From contig JABGYD010000008.1 in the NCBI GenBank assembly GCA_018675425.1, positions 1-64,000 of the forward strand: DNA of 64,000 nucleotides, in the 5' to 3' direction. This stretch comes from Kordiimonadaceae bacterium. Lineage in GTDB: Bacteria; Pseudomonadota; Alphaproteobacteria; Sphingomonadales; Emcibacteraceae. This document shows, piece by piece, positions 47,274 to 55,660 of the stretch (within the stretch, counting starts at the first letter, position 1; each line of letters starts with the position of its first letter). The notes under the pieces are model-generated. The model searched no databases and was not told where the DNA came from. It saw only the letters and a list, made by a program, of their open reading frames with translations. The position numbers and the translations under genes are program-made.

Positions 47274-47654
47274 TTAATTCACAGACTTCTTATGCCAGTC
47301 TGTTTTTTCAGCAATACGAGCTTTTTTACCGCGCAGGCCACGAAGGTAGTAAAGTTTCGCTCTACGAACACGGCCACGACGAATCACTTCTATGCTATCA
47401 ACATTTGGTGAGTAAAGCGGGAAGACGCGTTCAACACCTTCCCCGTAAGAAATTTTTCGTACAGTGAAGGAAGAATTAAGGGCACGGTTAGAACGAGCAA
47501 TACACACGCCTTCGTAGGCCTGGATACGCTCACGTTCCCCTTCAACAACCTTCACATTAACTTTAATTGTATCGCCAGGGGCAAACTCAGGGATGGTTTT
47601 ACCTTCAGTGAGTTGAGCCATTTGCTCTTTTTCAATTTTTTCAATCATATTCAT
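47274..47654 (-). CDS. rplS: 50S ribosomal protein L19
   Basis: Large-subunit protein at the 30S-50S interface. From the ATG at 47654 it has 126 residues; the core runs [19 protein letters not shown] to [20 protein letters not shown] longer frame starts at 47714 within the end of trmD but has no family sequence, while AAGGA lies upstream of 47654. Last gene of ffh-rpsP-rimM-trmD-rplS, followed by a terminator. Confidence 0.96.
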
Positions 47655-47710
47655 AATATTTTTTCCTTGTACGGCGGCTCTTTTAAACAAGTTTGAGCCA
47701 TAATTCAATA

Positions 47711-48433
47711 TCAATCGTCACTTTTCTTATAACTAAATTTATTCCAAAGGTCTGGACGCCTGTCTTTGGTTAGTTCTTCTGACTTTAACTTACGCCATTC
47801 TTTAATTTTTTCATGATGCCCTGACGTCAAGACATTAGGTATTTTTTCACCCTCCCACTCTTGTGGTCGGGTATATTGTGGATACTCAAGTAACCCACTG
47901 GTAAAACTTTCTTCTAATAACGTATCCGGCTCTCCAATAACACCAGGAATAAGCCGCACCACAGCGTCTATAAGCATCAGAGCTGCTATTTCTCCACCAG
48001 AAAGAACAAAATCACCAAGAGAAATCTCCTGCACATTTCGCTTTTTCAATACTCGCTCATCGAGACCTTCAAACCTACCGCAAATAAGAGTTATTCCTTG
48101 GTTTTTTACAAAACTATGAACCATTTTTTGATCCATAGTTTTGCCCCGTGGTGACAAATAAATAAGCGGCCAATCTTCATTGGATGTGCCTTTAGGCCTT
48201 TTTTCTATAGCCCTGTCAATTGCATGACCCATAACATCTGCCCGCATCACCATTCCAGGTCCACCACCAGCCGGAGTATCATCAACGCTACGATGTTTAT
48301 CCCTAGCATGGTCGCGAATTTGCATCACATCCATACCCCAAATTTTATTCTCTAACGCCTTACCCGCCAAGGAGAGACCAAGCGGTCCAGGAAACATTTC
48401 AGGAAAAAGAGTTAAAATCTGTGCCTGCCACAT
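47711..48433 (-). CDS. trmD: tRNA (guanine37-N1)-methyltransferase
   Basis: Methylates G37 of tRNAs next to the anticodon to prevent +1 frameshifting. The 240-residue SPOUT enzyme has [16 protein letters not shown] at the start, [24 protein letters not shown] and [17 protein letters not shown] for the SAM knot, and the C-terminal helical domain. It starts five bases after the rimM stop, the conserved order. Confidence 0.97.
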
Positions 48434-48438
48434 TCTTC

Positions 48439-49029
48439 CTATCCTTCTTGATCTACTTCAAAATCTTCGGGCGTATCATTGAAGGCATCACGGTCGATAA
48501 CGATATACCCTTCCTCGATATTTACCTCTGGAACAACATTATCTGAAAAAGGATACATGCGTTTCCCTTTTTCTTTTGAAAGCTTAACCTCAACAATATC
48601 GCCAGCACCAAAGTTAAAAACTCCATCCACCCTACCAAATAAATCATCTTGTTTGTCCTTGACCAACAGTCCGATCATATCCTCAAAATAAAAATCCCTC
48701 TCATCTTCAATTTCTGGTAGGGCCGATCTTTCAATATAAAGTTTTGACCCCTTTAAAGAATCCGCCTGATTACGATCAACAACATTTTTGAGCTGAACAG
48801 CAACACCATCTTTTACATTATGAAGAATTTTTAAATCGAATTTTTTACCTTGTGGAAATTCAGACCCTATTATTGTAACAGGACCATATTTTGATATAGA
48901 TTTTATATCTTCGGTAAAAACCTTAAGTCGAACAGCACCCCTTAGGCCAGCCGCACCAAAAATCGCACCTATACAAATAAGGTCCTCAAGATTATTAGTG
49001 CATTTATTTAATGGAGTTAATGCGTTCAT
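48439..49029 (-). CDS. rimM: 16S rRNA processing protein RimM
   Basis: Assembly factor for the 30S head that binds ribosomal protein S19. The 196-residue protein has a first barrel domain (about 15-100, opening ICIGAIFGAAGLRGAVRLKV) and a PRC-barrel domain (about 110-185, with DFYFEDMIGLLV and YPFSDNVVPEVN). It starts five bases after rpsP and stops five bases before trmD, all in one operon. Confidence 0.94.
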   Translation of the reverse strand: MNALTPLNKCTNNLEDLICIGAIFGAAGLRGAVRLKVFTEDIKSISKYGPVTIIGSEFPQGKKFDLKILHNVKDGVAVQLKNVVDRNQADSLKGSKLYIERSALPEIEDERDFYFEDMIGLLVKDKQDDLFGRVDGVFNFGAGDIVEVKLSKEKGKRMYPFSDNVVPEVNIEEGYIVIDRDAFNDTPEDFEVDQEG

Positions 49030-49034
49030 AGTTT

Positions 49035-49565
49035 TTAAGCTTTTTCATCTTTCTTTTCTTCTTCAGCGGTAGGAGCTTCATCAACGACAACTTCTTCAGC
49101 TGAGGCTTCAGCAGCGGGAGCTTCAGCAGCTTCTTTAGCAGCAACTTTAGCAGCTTCTTCTGCTTCAGCGGAAGCTTTAGCAGCAGCTTTCGCAGCTTCT
49201 TTAGCCTCTGCAGCAGCGGTAATAGCATTTTCTGCTTTTTCTTTTTGCTCTTCAATACGCTCGAGTGCTTTTGTGCCAGGCTTACCTTTATTAGGATTGG
49301 TACGCGCATCGCGTTTCAATACACCAGCGGCATCAAGAAACCTTGCAACACGGTCGGATGGTTTTGCACCCTGACCAAGCCAATGTTCAATGCGCTCAAT
49401 ATCAAGCTTGATACGGTCAGGATGGTCTTTCGGAAGCAATGGGTTATGCGTTCCTACTTTTTCAATATATTTACCATCACGCGGGGAGCGAGAATCCGCT
49501 ACTACAACTCGATAGTAAGGACGTTTTTTAGCACCGCCGCGTGCCAGTCTAATTTTAACAGCCAT
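49035..49565 (-). CDS. rpsP: 30S ribosomal protein S16 with Ala/Glu/Lys-rich tail
   Basis: Small-subunit assembly protein. The core (about 1-85) is classical: [20 protein letters not shown], then [15 protein letters not shown] and [16 protein letters not shown]. The protein is 176 residues, about twice the E. coli length; the extra 85 or so are a low-complexity Ala, Glu and Lys tail, probably a long helix or disordered. Extended S16 tails occur in alphaproteobacteria. It follows ffh by 57 bp and is coupled to rimM. Confidence 0.95.
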
Positions 49566-49622: not shown

Positions 49623-50984
49623 TTATTTTGGAAGCAAGCCTTCCATTCCTGGTGGCATAGCTCCGGGGAGAGGCATACGCCCACCTTTCTTACCTAATTT
49701 TTTCATCATAGTTGACATTTGTTTTTGCATTTTCATGAGTTTATTAACGTCCTGAACGGACGTTCCTGAGCCTGCTGCAATCCTCTTTTTTCGGGAAGCG
49801 TTCATCAACTTAGGTCGCGTACGCTCAGTTGGTGTCATACTGTTGATAATAGCTTCTTGCCGCAATAAAACTTTATCATCTAAATTAGCAGAGGCCATTT
49901 GCTTTTGCATTTTACCAAGTCCTGGAAGCATACCGAGAATACTACCCATACCACCAATTTTTTTCATTTGTTGAAGTTGGGAACGCAGATCATCAAAGTC
50001 AAACATACCCTTCTTCATTTTTTTCATCATGCGTTCCGCATCTTCAGCCTCAATGGTTTCAGACGCCTTTTCAACAAGTGAAACAACATCTCCCATACCA
50101 AGAATTCGGCTAGCCACACGCTCAGGATGAAACTCTTCAAGGTCGTCGATCTTCTCACCAACGCCAACAAGTTTGATCGGCTTACCTGTTACCGCACGCA
50201 TACTTAGAGCAGCACCACCGCGTCCATCACCATCCATACGGGTCAGAACCACACCAGTCACACCAATTTGACCCCCAAATTGTTCTGCAACATTAACTGC
50301 GTCCTGACCAGTAAGTGCATCAACTACCAAAAGTGTTTCGTGAGGATTTACAGCGTTTTTGACTGCCGAGACTTCAGCCATAAGTGCCTGATCAACATGA
50401 AGTCGACCTGCGGTATCAAGCATCACTACATCAAACCCCTGAAGCTTTGCAGCGGTCATAGCACGCTTCGCAATGTCTACTGGCGTTTGACCTTTAATAA
50501 TTGGCAATGTTTGGACATCTATTTGCTTTCCTAGGATTTCCAGTTGTTCCATGGCAGCCGGGCGTTGAACATCAAGGGAGGCCAAAAGTACTTTTTTGCG
50601 CTCCTTAACCTTCAGTCGTTTTGCAATTTTAGCAGTGGACGTTGTTTTACCCGAACCCTGAAGACCCACTACCAGTATGGGAACAGGTGCCGGAGCATTT
50701 AAATCAATGGTCTTAGCATCCCCGCCCAGCATCTCAACCAATTGATCATTGACTATCTTGACTACCATTTGACCTGGCGTCACAGATTTAACAACTTCTT
50801 GTCCGACAGCAGCTTTTTTTACTTTAGCAATAAAGTCTTTAACAACGGGCAGTGCAACATCAGCCTCTAATAAAGCAAGACGAACCTCACGCATAGCGGT
50901 GTCAACGTGGGTGTCACTTAGTGCACCACGTCTTTTCAGGTTATCAAATATACCGCCTAGTTTATCACTTAAACTATCAAACAT
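49623..50984 (-). CDS. ffh: Signal recognition particle protein
   Basis: SRP54 homologue of 453 residues that binds signal sequences with SRP RNA and docks with FtsY. It has the N domain, the G domain (P-loop GLQGSGKTTSTAK, DTAGRLHVD, TRMDGDGRGGAAL) and the Met-rich M domain (about 300-453) with the RNA-binding segment TPTERTRPKLMNASRKKRIA-like and a Met/Gly/Pro tail. It heads the rpsP-rimM-trmD-rplS operon; a promoter and folded leader lie upstream. FtsY is encoded 3.7 kb away on the other strand. Confidence 0.97.
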   Translation of the reverse strand: MFDSLSDKLGGIFDNLKRRGALSDTHVDTAMREVRLALLEADVALPVVKDFIAKVKKAAVGQEVVKSVTPGQMVVKIVNDQLVEMLGGDAKTIDLNAPAPVPILVVGLQGSGKTTSTAKIAKRLKVKERKKVLLASLDVQRPAAMEQLEILGKQIDVQTLPIIKGQTPVDIAKRAMTAAKLQGFDVVMLDTAGRLHVDQALMAEVSAVKNAVNPHETLLVVDALTGQDAVNVAEQFGGQIGVTGVVLTRMDGDGRGGAALSMRAVTGKPIKLVGVGEKIDDLEEFHPERVASRILGMGDVVSLVEKASETIEAEDAERMMKKMKKGMFDFDDLRSQLQQMKKIGGMGSILGMLPGLGKMQKQMASANLDDKVLLRQEAIINSMTPTERTRPKLMNASRKKRIAAGSGTSVQDVNKLMKMQKQMSTMMKKLGKKGGRMPLPGAMPPGMEGLLPK

Positions 50985-51043
50985 ATCGCTTACTTAATCC
51001 AGTTACTTCAAAAATTTTCGAATGAATTTTAATAACAAAAGCA

Positions 51044-51116
51044 CACCAGTGGGCGAACCTTCGCTGACTGGTGGGCATCCTTGGACACATGCTATTCAAC
51101 ATCCATTGGTAATGGA
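51044..51116 (-). ncRNA. Candidate structured 5' leader of the ffh operon
   Basis: Downstream of the promoter at 51120-51148 the minus strand can form a triloop hairpin (51102-51116, TCCATT with AATGGA), an alternative wobble-rich stem (51083-51104) that shares three bases with the first, and a strong hairpin at 51044-51073 (CACCAGT with ACTGGTG plus an inner GCGA/TCGC stem) followed by TGTGCTTTTG. It is not SRP RNA: the conserved GGAAGCAGCC-type loop is absent. It could be an attenuator or a protein-binding leader. Confidence 0.45.
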
Positions 51117-51119
51117 GGG

Positions 51120-51148
51120 AAAATATGAGTATTTGAGAGAAGAGTCAA
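51120..51148 (-). promoter_or_regulatory. Sigma-70 type promoter of the ffh operon
   Basis: On the minus strand TTGACT (51143-51148) and TATTTT (51120-51125) are separated by exactly 17 bp. Start of transcription would be near 51113, giving a leader of about 130 bases before the ffh ATG. It is the best promoter I see in the window. Confidence 0.7.
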
Positions 51149-53441: not shown

Positions 53442-54722
53442 ATGAAAAACAATAAAGCGAAAGTCGTCACGTTCGGCTGCAGGCTAAATATTTATGAATC
53501 TGAAATTATTAAAGAACACGCAGAAAATGCGCGGCTTACTAATGCGTTTATTTTTAATACTTGTGCGGTTACAGCAGAGGCAACCCGTCAGGCAAAACAG
53601 TCGATCCGACGCACTCGCCGCAATAATCCTGATGCAAGTATCATCGTTACGGGGTGTGCTGCGCAAATTGATCCTCAACAATTTTCAAACATGGCGGAGG
53701 TCGATCAGGTCTTTGGTAATGAAGAAAAACTAAATGTACAAAGTTATGAAGATTTTGGAGTTTCTACGTCAGAGCGCGTTGCTGTAAATGATATCATGTC
53801 CATAAAAAAAACTGCGCCACATTTAATTGATGGTTTTGAAGAACGCTCACGAGCTTTTGTTCAGGTACAAAACGGTTGTGATCACCGTTGTACTTTTTGT
53901 ATTATTCCCTACGGCCGAGGCAATAGTCGCTCTGTTCCTGCCGGCGAGGTAGTCGCTCAAATTCAAAAGTTAGTAGATAATGGCTATAAAGAAGTTATTA
54001 TCACCGGCGTAGACATTACTTCTTACGGACCCGATCTTCCCGGTAATCCTACACTTGGAACTCTATGTCAACAGATCCTCAAGAGGGTTCCCGACCTGCA
54101 ACGCCTGCGGCTCAGCTCAATAGATAGTATTGAAACCGATGAAGCTCTATTCGAAATTATTACTAATGATCAACGCATGATGCCGCACCTTCACCTGTCA
54201 CTGCAAGCTGGCGATAATATGATTCTCAAACGTATGAAACGAAGACACACTCGCGAAGACTCGATTGAGTTTTGCAACACTGTACTTAAAGCTCGCCCAG
54301 ATGTAGTTTTTGGTGCTGATATTATTGCTGGGTTTCCAACCGAAACAGAGGAAATGTTTGAAAATTCGATGCGTTTGGTAGAGGATTGCAATCTCACCTA
54401 CCTCCATGTGTTTCCCTATTCAGAACGCGACGGAACTCCGGCAGCAAAAATGCCACAGCTTGAACGAAGTATCCGCAAAGAGCGTGCAGCGAGATTGCGG
54501 GTGTTGGGTGAAAAAAAAGTAAATCAAGTTCTTAAAAAAACTGTCGGCAAGATAGTAAGCATCTTAATTGAGAAAAACATGAAAGATGAACAAATCTCTA
54601 TCGGGCATACCGAGCATTTTGCACCAATAAAATTAATTGGTATTCACGCCATAGGAGATATTGCAAAAGCTCGGGTAACGAACTTTCAAGGCGGCATACT
54701 CATTGCGGAAATTATTCAATGA
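53442..54722 (+). CDS. mtaB: tRNA t6A37 methylthiotransferase MtaB
   Basis: Radical-SAM enzyme (426 residues) converting t6A to ms2t6A at position 37 of tRNAs reading ANN codons. Its three domains are visible: the N-terminal UPF0004 domain with three Cys (FGCRLN, NTCAVT, TGCAAQ), the radical-SAM motif CDHRCTFC, and a C-terminal TRAM domain. FGCRLN rather than GCQMN distinguishes MtaB from MiaB. ftsY follows with a four-base overlap (ATGA), a common alphaproteobacterial pair. Confidence 0.95.
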   Translation: MKNNKAKVVTFGCRLNIYESEIIKEHAENARLTNAFIFNTCAVTAEATRQAKQSIRRTRRNNPDASIIVTGCAAQIDPQQFSNMAEVDQVFGNEEKLNVQSYEDFGVSTSERVAVNDIMSIKKTAPHLIDGFEERSRAFVQVQNGCDHRCTFCIIPYGRGNSRSVPAGEVVAQIQKLVDNGYKEVIITGVDITSYGPDLPGNPTLGTLCQQILKRVPDLQRLRLSSIDSIETDEALFEIITNDQRMMPHLHLSLQAGDNMILKRMKRRHTREDSIEFCNTVLKARPDVVFGADIIAGFPTETEEMFENSMRLVEDCNLTYLHVFPYSERDGTPAAKMPQLERSIRKERAARLRVLGEKKVNQVLKKTVGKIVSILIEKNMKDEQISIGHTEHFAPIKLIGIHAIGDIAKARVTNFQGGILIAEIIQ

Positions 54723-55660
54723 CGGAGAAAAAACAAAAACTGGGTTGGTTTAGTAGACTAAAGCAAGGATTGAAAAAAAGTTCAAGTGCTCTAACGGAGG
54801 GCATTACAGGAATTTTCACTAAAAAGAGGTTGGACGCATCAACGCTCGAAGAGCTGGAGGATCTACTTATTATGTCTGACCTTGGCGTAGCCGTAAGCGC
54901 TAGGGTCTGTGAACGACTAGCAAAGAACCGCTTTGATAAATCCATATCAGCTGAAGAAGTCCAGCAAGCTCTTGCCGAGGAAATAGGCGAAATAATGGAG
55001 GATGTAGCCAAACCTCTCGAGGTCAATGGTGAAAACACTCCACATGTAATACTTATGGTAGGTGTCAATGGTGCTGGAAAAACGACAACAATTGGTAAAA
55101 TGGCTAAACAATTTAAAAACCAAGGTAAATCGGTGATGCTCGCCGCGGGGGATACTTTCCGGGCTGCAGCAACACAACAGCTCCAAATTTGGGGCCAACG
55201 TAACAATATACCAGTCGTGGTTGGTAAGGAAGGTTGCGATGCTGCGGGGCTAATCTACGATGCTATTGAAAAGGCCCGTAACACCAATACAGATATTTTA
55301 ATGGTTGATACCGCAGGAAGGCTCCAAAATAAGGGCTACCTAATGGATGAACTTAAAAAAATTATCCGCGTGATTAGTAAATTTGACCAAACAGCACCCC
55401 ACAATACAGTGTTAATTTTAGATGCCACTACAGGCCAGAATGCTGTTTTGCAAACAGAAGTCTTTCTTGAGATGGCAGGTATAACTGGAATTATTATGAC
55501 AAAACTTGATGGTACTGCCCGCGGAGGGGTACTCGTGGCATGTGCTGAAAAGTTTAGGTTGCCTATACACGCCATTGGAGTTGGTGAAACTATCGACGAT
55601 TTACAGCCGTTTGATGCAGCTGATTTTTCCAAGATGCTGGTTGGTGTAGACATAAATTAG
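54719..55660 (+). CDS. ftsY: Signal recognition particle receptor FtsY
   Basis: GTPase (313 residues) that docks SRP-bound ribosomes at the membrane. The NG domain is complete: P-loop GVNGAGKTTTIGKM, DTAGRLQNKG and TKLDGTARGGVLVA. The acidic N-terminal A domain found in E. coli is nearly absent, as in many alphaproteobacteria; the first 25 residues are basic and could touch the membrane. Overlaps mtaB by four bases and is followed after 14 bp by ispZ. Confidence 0.96.
   Translation: MTEKKQKLGWFSRLKQGLKKSSSALTEGITGIFTKKRLDASTLEELEDLLIMSDLGVAVSARVCERLAKNRFDKSISAEEVQQALAEEIGEIMEDVAKPLEVNGENTPHVILMVGVNGAGKTTTIGKMAKQFKNQGKSVMLAAGDTFRAAATQQLQIWGQRNNIPVVVGKEGCDAAGLIYDAIEKARNTNTDILMVDTAGRLQNKGYLMDELKKIIRVISKFDQTAPHNTVLILDATTGQNAVLQTEVFLEMAGITGIIMTKLDGTARGGVLVACAEKFRLPIHAIGVGETIDDLQPFDAADFSKMLVGVDIN

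Follow-up and report, generated by a model that had tools for sequence, protein, structure and literature searches.

What does the folded leader between a strong promoter and ffh do, and for which gene of the operon? The question is raised by the minus strand of the window (the whole stretch of 64,000 nucleotides analysed), where ffh is followed by rpsP, rimM, trmD and rplS in this order. A preliminary description of this DNA had proposed a TTGACT-17-TATTTT promoter followed by three hairpins and a T-rich stretch. The promoter was recovered on the minus strand (Table 1): 17 nt separate its two hexamers, and in the 27 listed loci of the window's family, whose nearest named relatives carry the labels Kordiimonadaceae and Emcibacteraceae, this spacing is as constant as the hexamers themselves, the letters of the spacer being variable. 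Across the class, TTGAC lies 20-190 nt upstream of the hairpin called P2 below in 123 of 137 non-redundant leaders (from 188 usable ones), compared to 17.7 expected from shuffles. Transcription would start at about 51113, giving a leader of about 129 nt which ends at the ffh ATG (50984, minus strand). With one exception, the family loci have 69-72 nt between this putative start and the point where P2 ends.

Table 1. Features of the ffh leader and operon in the window.
Feature	Position	Strand	Remark
-35 element TTGACT	51143..51148	-	identical in 27/27 listed loci of the window's family
-10 element TATTTT	51120..51125	-	identical in 27/27 listed loci of the window's family
Hairpin 1 of the preliminary description	51102..51116	-	partly overlaps the putative start site; genus-level only
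Hairpin 2 of the preliminary description, GGA/UCC	51083..51104	-	predicted alternative pairing in the window's family; excludes P1
P1, GUGUC-CAAG-GAUGC, 5 bp and tetraloop	51075..51088	-	unpaired in the RF01793 model; directly before P2
P2, the RF01793 hairpin (hairpin 3 of the preliminary description)	51044..51073	-	family model, fold, covariation
Tail, positions 1-14 after P2	51030..51043	-	class consensus about CGUUUUGCGUUUGG; window copy UGCUUUUGUUAUUA
ffh (SRP54 domains)	49623..50984	-	
rpsP (S16)	49035..49565	-	gene always downstream of the element
rimM	48439..49029	-	
trmD	47711..48433	-	
rplS (L19)	47274..47714	-	

Hairpins of the leader and membership in RF01793

The preliminary description could match the leader to no known family. 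A search of the window with RNA family models (cmscan) did so, returning RF01793 ("ffh sRNA") at 51088-51036, 59 nt before the ffh ATG, with 49.5 bits for a curated threshold of 35; apart from one chance-level match, the Rfam scan of the leader gave no other family. In the available part of the work of Meyer et al. 2009 (PMC2704228), the ffh motif consists of one bulged hairpin in front of ffh, in which two cytosines hardly vary. Its reported range took in Rhizobiales, Rhodobacterales, Sphingomonadales and Pelagibacter, whereas Rhodospirillales and Caulobacterales had none; the authors guessed a regulatory role and saw no likeness to 4.5S RNA. The window copy is the same hairpin at the same place, a single bulged hairpin upstream of ffh with bulge cytosines C51066, C51051 and C51052. 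The window thus contains an ordinary member of an established family, the published account of which is too restricted: it comprises one hairpin, whereas a second hairpin (P1) and a tail are found here, it is named after ffh, whereas the partner gene here is rpsP, and its published range is exceeded, as described below.

P2 corresponds exactly to the third hairpin of the preliminary description. It is built of 7 bp, the mismatches C51066.C51051 and A51065.C51052, 4 bp and a 4-nt loop, and its predicted fold (MFE -15.2, z -4.47) was equalled by none of 200 shuffles. Both-side changes were found at 9 of its 10 pairs, with 121 such cells compared to 26.5 after shuffling; the percentage of paired cells holds by construction, as the P2 seeds were picked by a pairing descriptor. 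The C.C mismatch is present in 136 of the 137 leaders, in part through the selection of these leaders.

P1 was analyzed in 37 non-redundant leaders picked by their loop letters alone. There, 175 of 185 cells pair (95.4% on alignment A2, compared to 66.8% after shuffling, the leaders again being selected on the loop letters and not on the stem), whereas shuffles gave 120.6 paired cells with a maximum of 137 in 2000. The stem stops at pair five, a sixth pair being found in only 2 of the 37 leaders. On alignment A2 (39 leaders), both-side changes occur at all 5 pairs, in 54 cells compared to 17.7 after shuffling, and the covariation score was 0.835 compared to at most 0.201 for slid versions of the stem. 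When the selection on loop letters was removed, the best hairpin adjoining P2 scored a mean of 13.4 in the 137 leaders, compared to 10.9 for upstream pieces swapped between species (200 draws, maximum 11.7). Covariation among relatives, whose absence the preliminary description had named as counting against a functional leader, is therefore present in P1 and P2 alike. P1 is longer in many Rhodobacterales-like leaders. In a rumen clade (L289-L305), it often carries a UACG loop with a C-G closing pair, and a UACG loop closed by C-G is a stable tetraloop type.

The two upstream hairpins of the preliminary description fared less well. Hairpin 1 (51116-51102) does fold (-3.4, z -2.55), but by eye similar hairpins were seen only in the same genus. 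Hairpin 2 (51104-51083) is weak when taken alone (z -0.26, matched by 70 of 200 shuffles) but is predicted in the context of the leader: in 19 related loci of the window's family, the pairing of GGA (51104-51102) with UCC (51085-51083) has a mean probability of 0.88 compared to 0.15 with shuffled upstream DNA, whereas outside this family the values are 0.23 and 0.23 (31 leaders). The mutual exclusion of hairpins 1 and 2 was borne out, and hairpin 2 also excludes P1, a point which had been missed. Thermodynamically, P1 is not supported as the preferred structure of the window's family, hairpin 2 prevailing in 19 of 20 predicted folds. Since only in this family does hairpin 2 clearly exceed shuffled DNA, it may displace P1 as a family-specific switch, as judged from folds of related loci in which the paired letters are invariant.

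We also considered an upstream peptide. An ATG at 51078, within P1, opens a frame of 33 codons (51078-50977, minus strand) which overlaps the ffh start. This frame is probably due to chance, since several sister species have GATACC at that place (seen by eye), and the candidate was rejected.

Distribution and partner gene

Leaders were screened with a descriptor of the hairpin, composed of a 7-bp stem, the C.C mismatch and an inner stem. It matched 104 of 116 ffh leaders from alphaproteobacteria (340 nt each), 32 of 700 shuffles and none of 24 gammaproteobacterial ffh leaders (320 nt each). The model R1, built from alignment A1 of 63 of the descriptor-matching leaders, matches at least 242 of 385 Alphaproteobacteria, a count that is partly circular as the R1 seeds overlap the class set, and RF01793 matches at least 106 of the same 385. 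In these large sets 14-19 first-look candidates were scored per genome, so that the counts are lower bounds. In a sample of the phylum, R1 matched at least 75 of 86 alphaproteobacteria and at least 1 of 213 genomes of other classes (that one with 25.6 bits), the split between the two groups resting on listing order. The element is thus a known RNA spread over most of one bacterial class. Sixty R1 loci without an RF01793 match were examined; every one is located upstream of ffh and in the same orientation, with rpsP behind, one of them (L210) being the second match of a genome whose other match fits RF01793. R1 matches include Rhodospirillales- (L080, L086, L096), Caulobacteraceae- (L112) and Hyphomonadaceae-labelled loci, against the distribution given in 2009, and RF01793 itself matches once in ten such or rearranged loci. 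Among 18 Ffh loci from R1-negative genomes, 5 reached E < 0.05 when searched alone and 12 have a P2-like hairpin according to a relaxed descriptor, which matched 15 of 420 shuffles. The motif was not seen in some genomes that keep ffh next to rpsP (for example L235, L240 and L247). One genome, G066, carries two copies of the element (G066:C63 and G066:C595), one of them at a contig end, in an assembly with 7% contamination.

Among the 107 loci with enough DNA downstream of the motif, rpsP was found in 107, ffh in 104, rimM in 100, trmD in 93 and rplS in 81. The gap between P2 and ffh ranges from 17 to 533 nt, and a whole gene lies between the element and ffh in L034/L078, in L083/L089/L093 and in L218. 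The variable gap and the intervening genes make blocking of the ffh ribosome site unlikely, and this mode of action was rejected. The intervening genes differ; we named them by eye as cupin-like, CrcB-like and a small Cys-containing frame. In five loci of one genus of the window's family (L005, L010, L012, L024, L068), repeat-like insertions were seen between the hairpin and ffh, in tandem in L010/L068.

Rearranged operons allowed ffh and rpsP to be considered separately. In G709, ffh lies outside the operon and its leader is without the motif, which is found at rpsP (32.5 bits). The 18 loci of the G709 clade comprise 13 with the order motif-ffh-rpsP and 5 with motif-rpsP; one of these five and two further genomes have the order ffh, promoter with motif, rpsP. 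In seven genomes in all, the element stands directly before rpsP-rimM-trmD-rplS and not before ffh. The ffh leaders of these genomes gave no motif in 6 of 6 examined, the seventh ffh not having been found. The two genes are also apart in G078 and G113, and there the motif was found at neither of them. On trees that left out L294, the seven rearranged genomes, which are MAGs, require 3 changes, yet their grouping in one clade is not rejected (p-AU 0.429; 0.144 when tested with five rearranged genomes). Independent origins of the rearranged operon were therefore not retained, and these genomes represent a natural experiment that is strong but may have happened only once. Had the motif served Ffh alone, decay would nevertheless be expected in the seven genomes, and its retention at rpsP argues against such a role. 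The evidence thus points to the rpsP part of the operon more than to Ffh and suggests that the element serves as leader to the rpsP transcription unit, which is the best-supported new statement of this analysis. As in S16 leaders, a ribosomal protein gene lies downstream (107/107) of a conserved covarying structure.

The conserved tail

Conservation extends for 14 nt after P2 and stops there. Positions 3-6 of this tail are T-rich, A often taking the place of T at positions 3-5, and the best-conserved positions are 10 (T in 125 of the 137 leaders) and 11 (T in 130). Of 136 tails (one tail with N was dropped), 119 have a T|G step 11 or 12 nt downstream of P2, compared to 30.7 in shuffled tails (maximum 48). 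The step is also present in 60 of 73 leaders found by RF01793 or Ffh and not by R1, the distal tail lying outside this selection. According to the available part of PMC12288461 (see also the parts of PMC6336406 and PMC9291695 consulted), hairpin-stabilised pauses have Y-1 and G+1 and a duplex 11-12 nt upstream of the RNA 3' end. The element may resemble such his-type pauses by a duplex 11-12 nt before a T|G step across the class. It differs from them in that G-10 of the pause consensus is mostly absent (28 of 50 tails with 11-nt spacing, 6 of 69 with 12-nt spacing) and in that the window's own tail reads TTATT and is without the step. For these two reasons we put pausing forward as a proposal.

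Possible modes of action

The computations show family membership, the covariation of P1 and P2, the class-wide distribution, the linkage to rpsP and the fixed tail. The reading that we favour, with a probability of about 0.6, is a cis-acting leader which tunes the S16 operon, ffh being regulated along with it as the usual first gene, and which was misnamed after that gene. The strong sigma-70-type promoter would transcribe the leader ahead of ffh-rpsP-rimM-trmD-rplS, with the adjacent hairpins P1 and P2 and then the short conserved tail. Once P2 has left RNA polymerase, the conserved site 11-12 nt downstream may cause a pause, during which a product of the operon, most likely S16, could bind P1/P2. 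Binding would shift the balance between continued transcription and premature release, in a direction which we can only infer, and release would leave a short transcript of about 80 nt. Displacement of P1 by hairpin 2 may add a switch in the window's family. By the reasoning applied to other ribosomal protein leaders, S16 is the likeliest ligand because rpsP alone is always present; in multi-gene operons the ligand is often not the product of the first gene (PMC7247131, in the part available). The same source (Eckert and Weinberg 2020) describes an S16 leader of Flavobacteria as covarying and located before rpsP, often with rimM. The present element is alike in being a covarying leader in front of rpsP, but in most genomes ffh lies in between and binding of the ligand is a supposition. 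The interpretation given in the preliminary description is partly supported: the ffh operon does have a structured leader with exclusive hairpins, for which attenuation or binding of one of the operon's products (S16, L19 or Ffh) had been proposed, whereas Ffh appears less favoured as the product than the rpsP part.

Ffh might bind the leader hairpin and repress its own operon, a possibility raised in the available part of the 2009 paper (PMC2704228). Ffh is an RNA-binding protein, and its gene lies downstream in 104 of the 107 long loci, but the motif remains with rpsP where ffh has left. The SRP RNA model RF00169 gave no match to the leader at E up to 5, in agreement with the lack of resemblance seen by the 2009 authors, and we consider this mechanism improbable. 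SRP RNA has a functional link to the element through Ffh only, and a separate 4.5S gene is present in the window's genome. Mimicry of SRP RNA was considered as the fragments CCAAGG and ACCAGUCAG looked alike, in comparison with what we take to be the 4.5S letters, yet it was rejected on the RF00169 result. Mimicry of 16S rRNA was likewise rejected: the best resemblance to E. coli 16S rRNA was 5.3 bits, and none of 13 short motif words sought there occurs. The window's own assembly (G000; 2.2 Mb, 94 contigs) gave no 16S rRNA match though it is 99.6% complete.

A free small RNA with its own promoter, ending near the U-rich tail and acting in trans, would fit the classification of RF01793 as sRNA in Rfam, the transcript present in small-RNA metatranscriptomes (PMC2704228), the 'ffH leader RNA' among Bartonella RNA-seq peaks (PMC7717549) and an entry in a Mesorhizobium list (PMC5596092), each in the available part of the source, as well as the nearly constant distance from start to P2 end. 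A trans-acting RNA would also be kept when ffh leaves. We nevertheless regard this alternative as unlikely, as rpsP lies downstream in every long locus, the loops vary without a conserved unpaired seed other than linker, mismatch and tail, and the strongest unpaired conservation is that of the tail at fixed spacing. Rather unlikely, too, is a plain intrinsic terminator-attenuator, in which P2 and a U-tract would stop part of the polymerases. The T-rich stretch noted after the third hairpin is indeed present, and some tails have at least 6 T in a row (L008, L071, L073, L223, L252); in the window, however, it is broken (TGCTTTTGTTATT) and a terminator scan called none. TTTT occurs within the first 9 nt after P2 in only 51 of 137 leaders, and an intrinsic terminator was rejected as the common feature on this ground. 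The frequent A at positions 3-5 and the location of positions 10 and 11 beyond the usual release point also speak against this explanation. Finally, the operon carries ribosome and secretion genes, and the two stable hairpins close to its 5' end could act as a general stabiliser or processing site of the mRNA, without a ligand. This is very unlikely, as it leaves unexplained the C.C mismatch (frequent partly by selection), the fixed tail and the constant partner gene.

If the cis-acting S16 leader is the correct reading, an orphan RNA family becomes a ribosomal protein leader in most of a large bacterial class, the name and model of RF01793 have to be revised, and a defined pause site becomes available for immediate assay. 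A literature search gave no paper tying RF01793 to rpsP or giving it a second hairpin. The fullest version of this reading is tentative: an ancient S16 autoregulatory leader throughout alphaproteobacteria, in which nascent P1-P2 would induce a hairpin-stabilised pause 11-12 nt downstream and S16 binding would decide on transcription of the S16-L19 genes and of the SRP gene. Were it true, secretion capacity would be tied to ribosome supply via a ribosomal protein.

Two minor observations concern the surroundings of ffh. The window encodes a second SRP54-type GTPase with an N domain (54719-55657, plus strand), about 3.7 kb from ffh and facing away from it, which is presumably FtsY-like. L252 comes from a distant genome, whose Ffh is 43% identical. 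Upstream of its ffh stands a hairpin shaped like P2, C.C mismatch included, after which come TTTTTTATTTTTT and the start codon; P2 looks here as though it had turned into a terminator.
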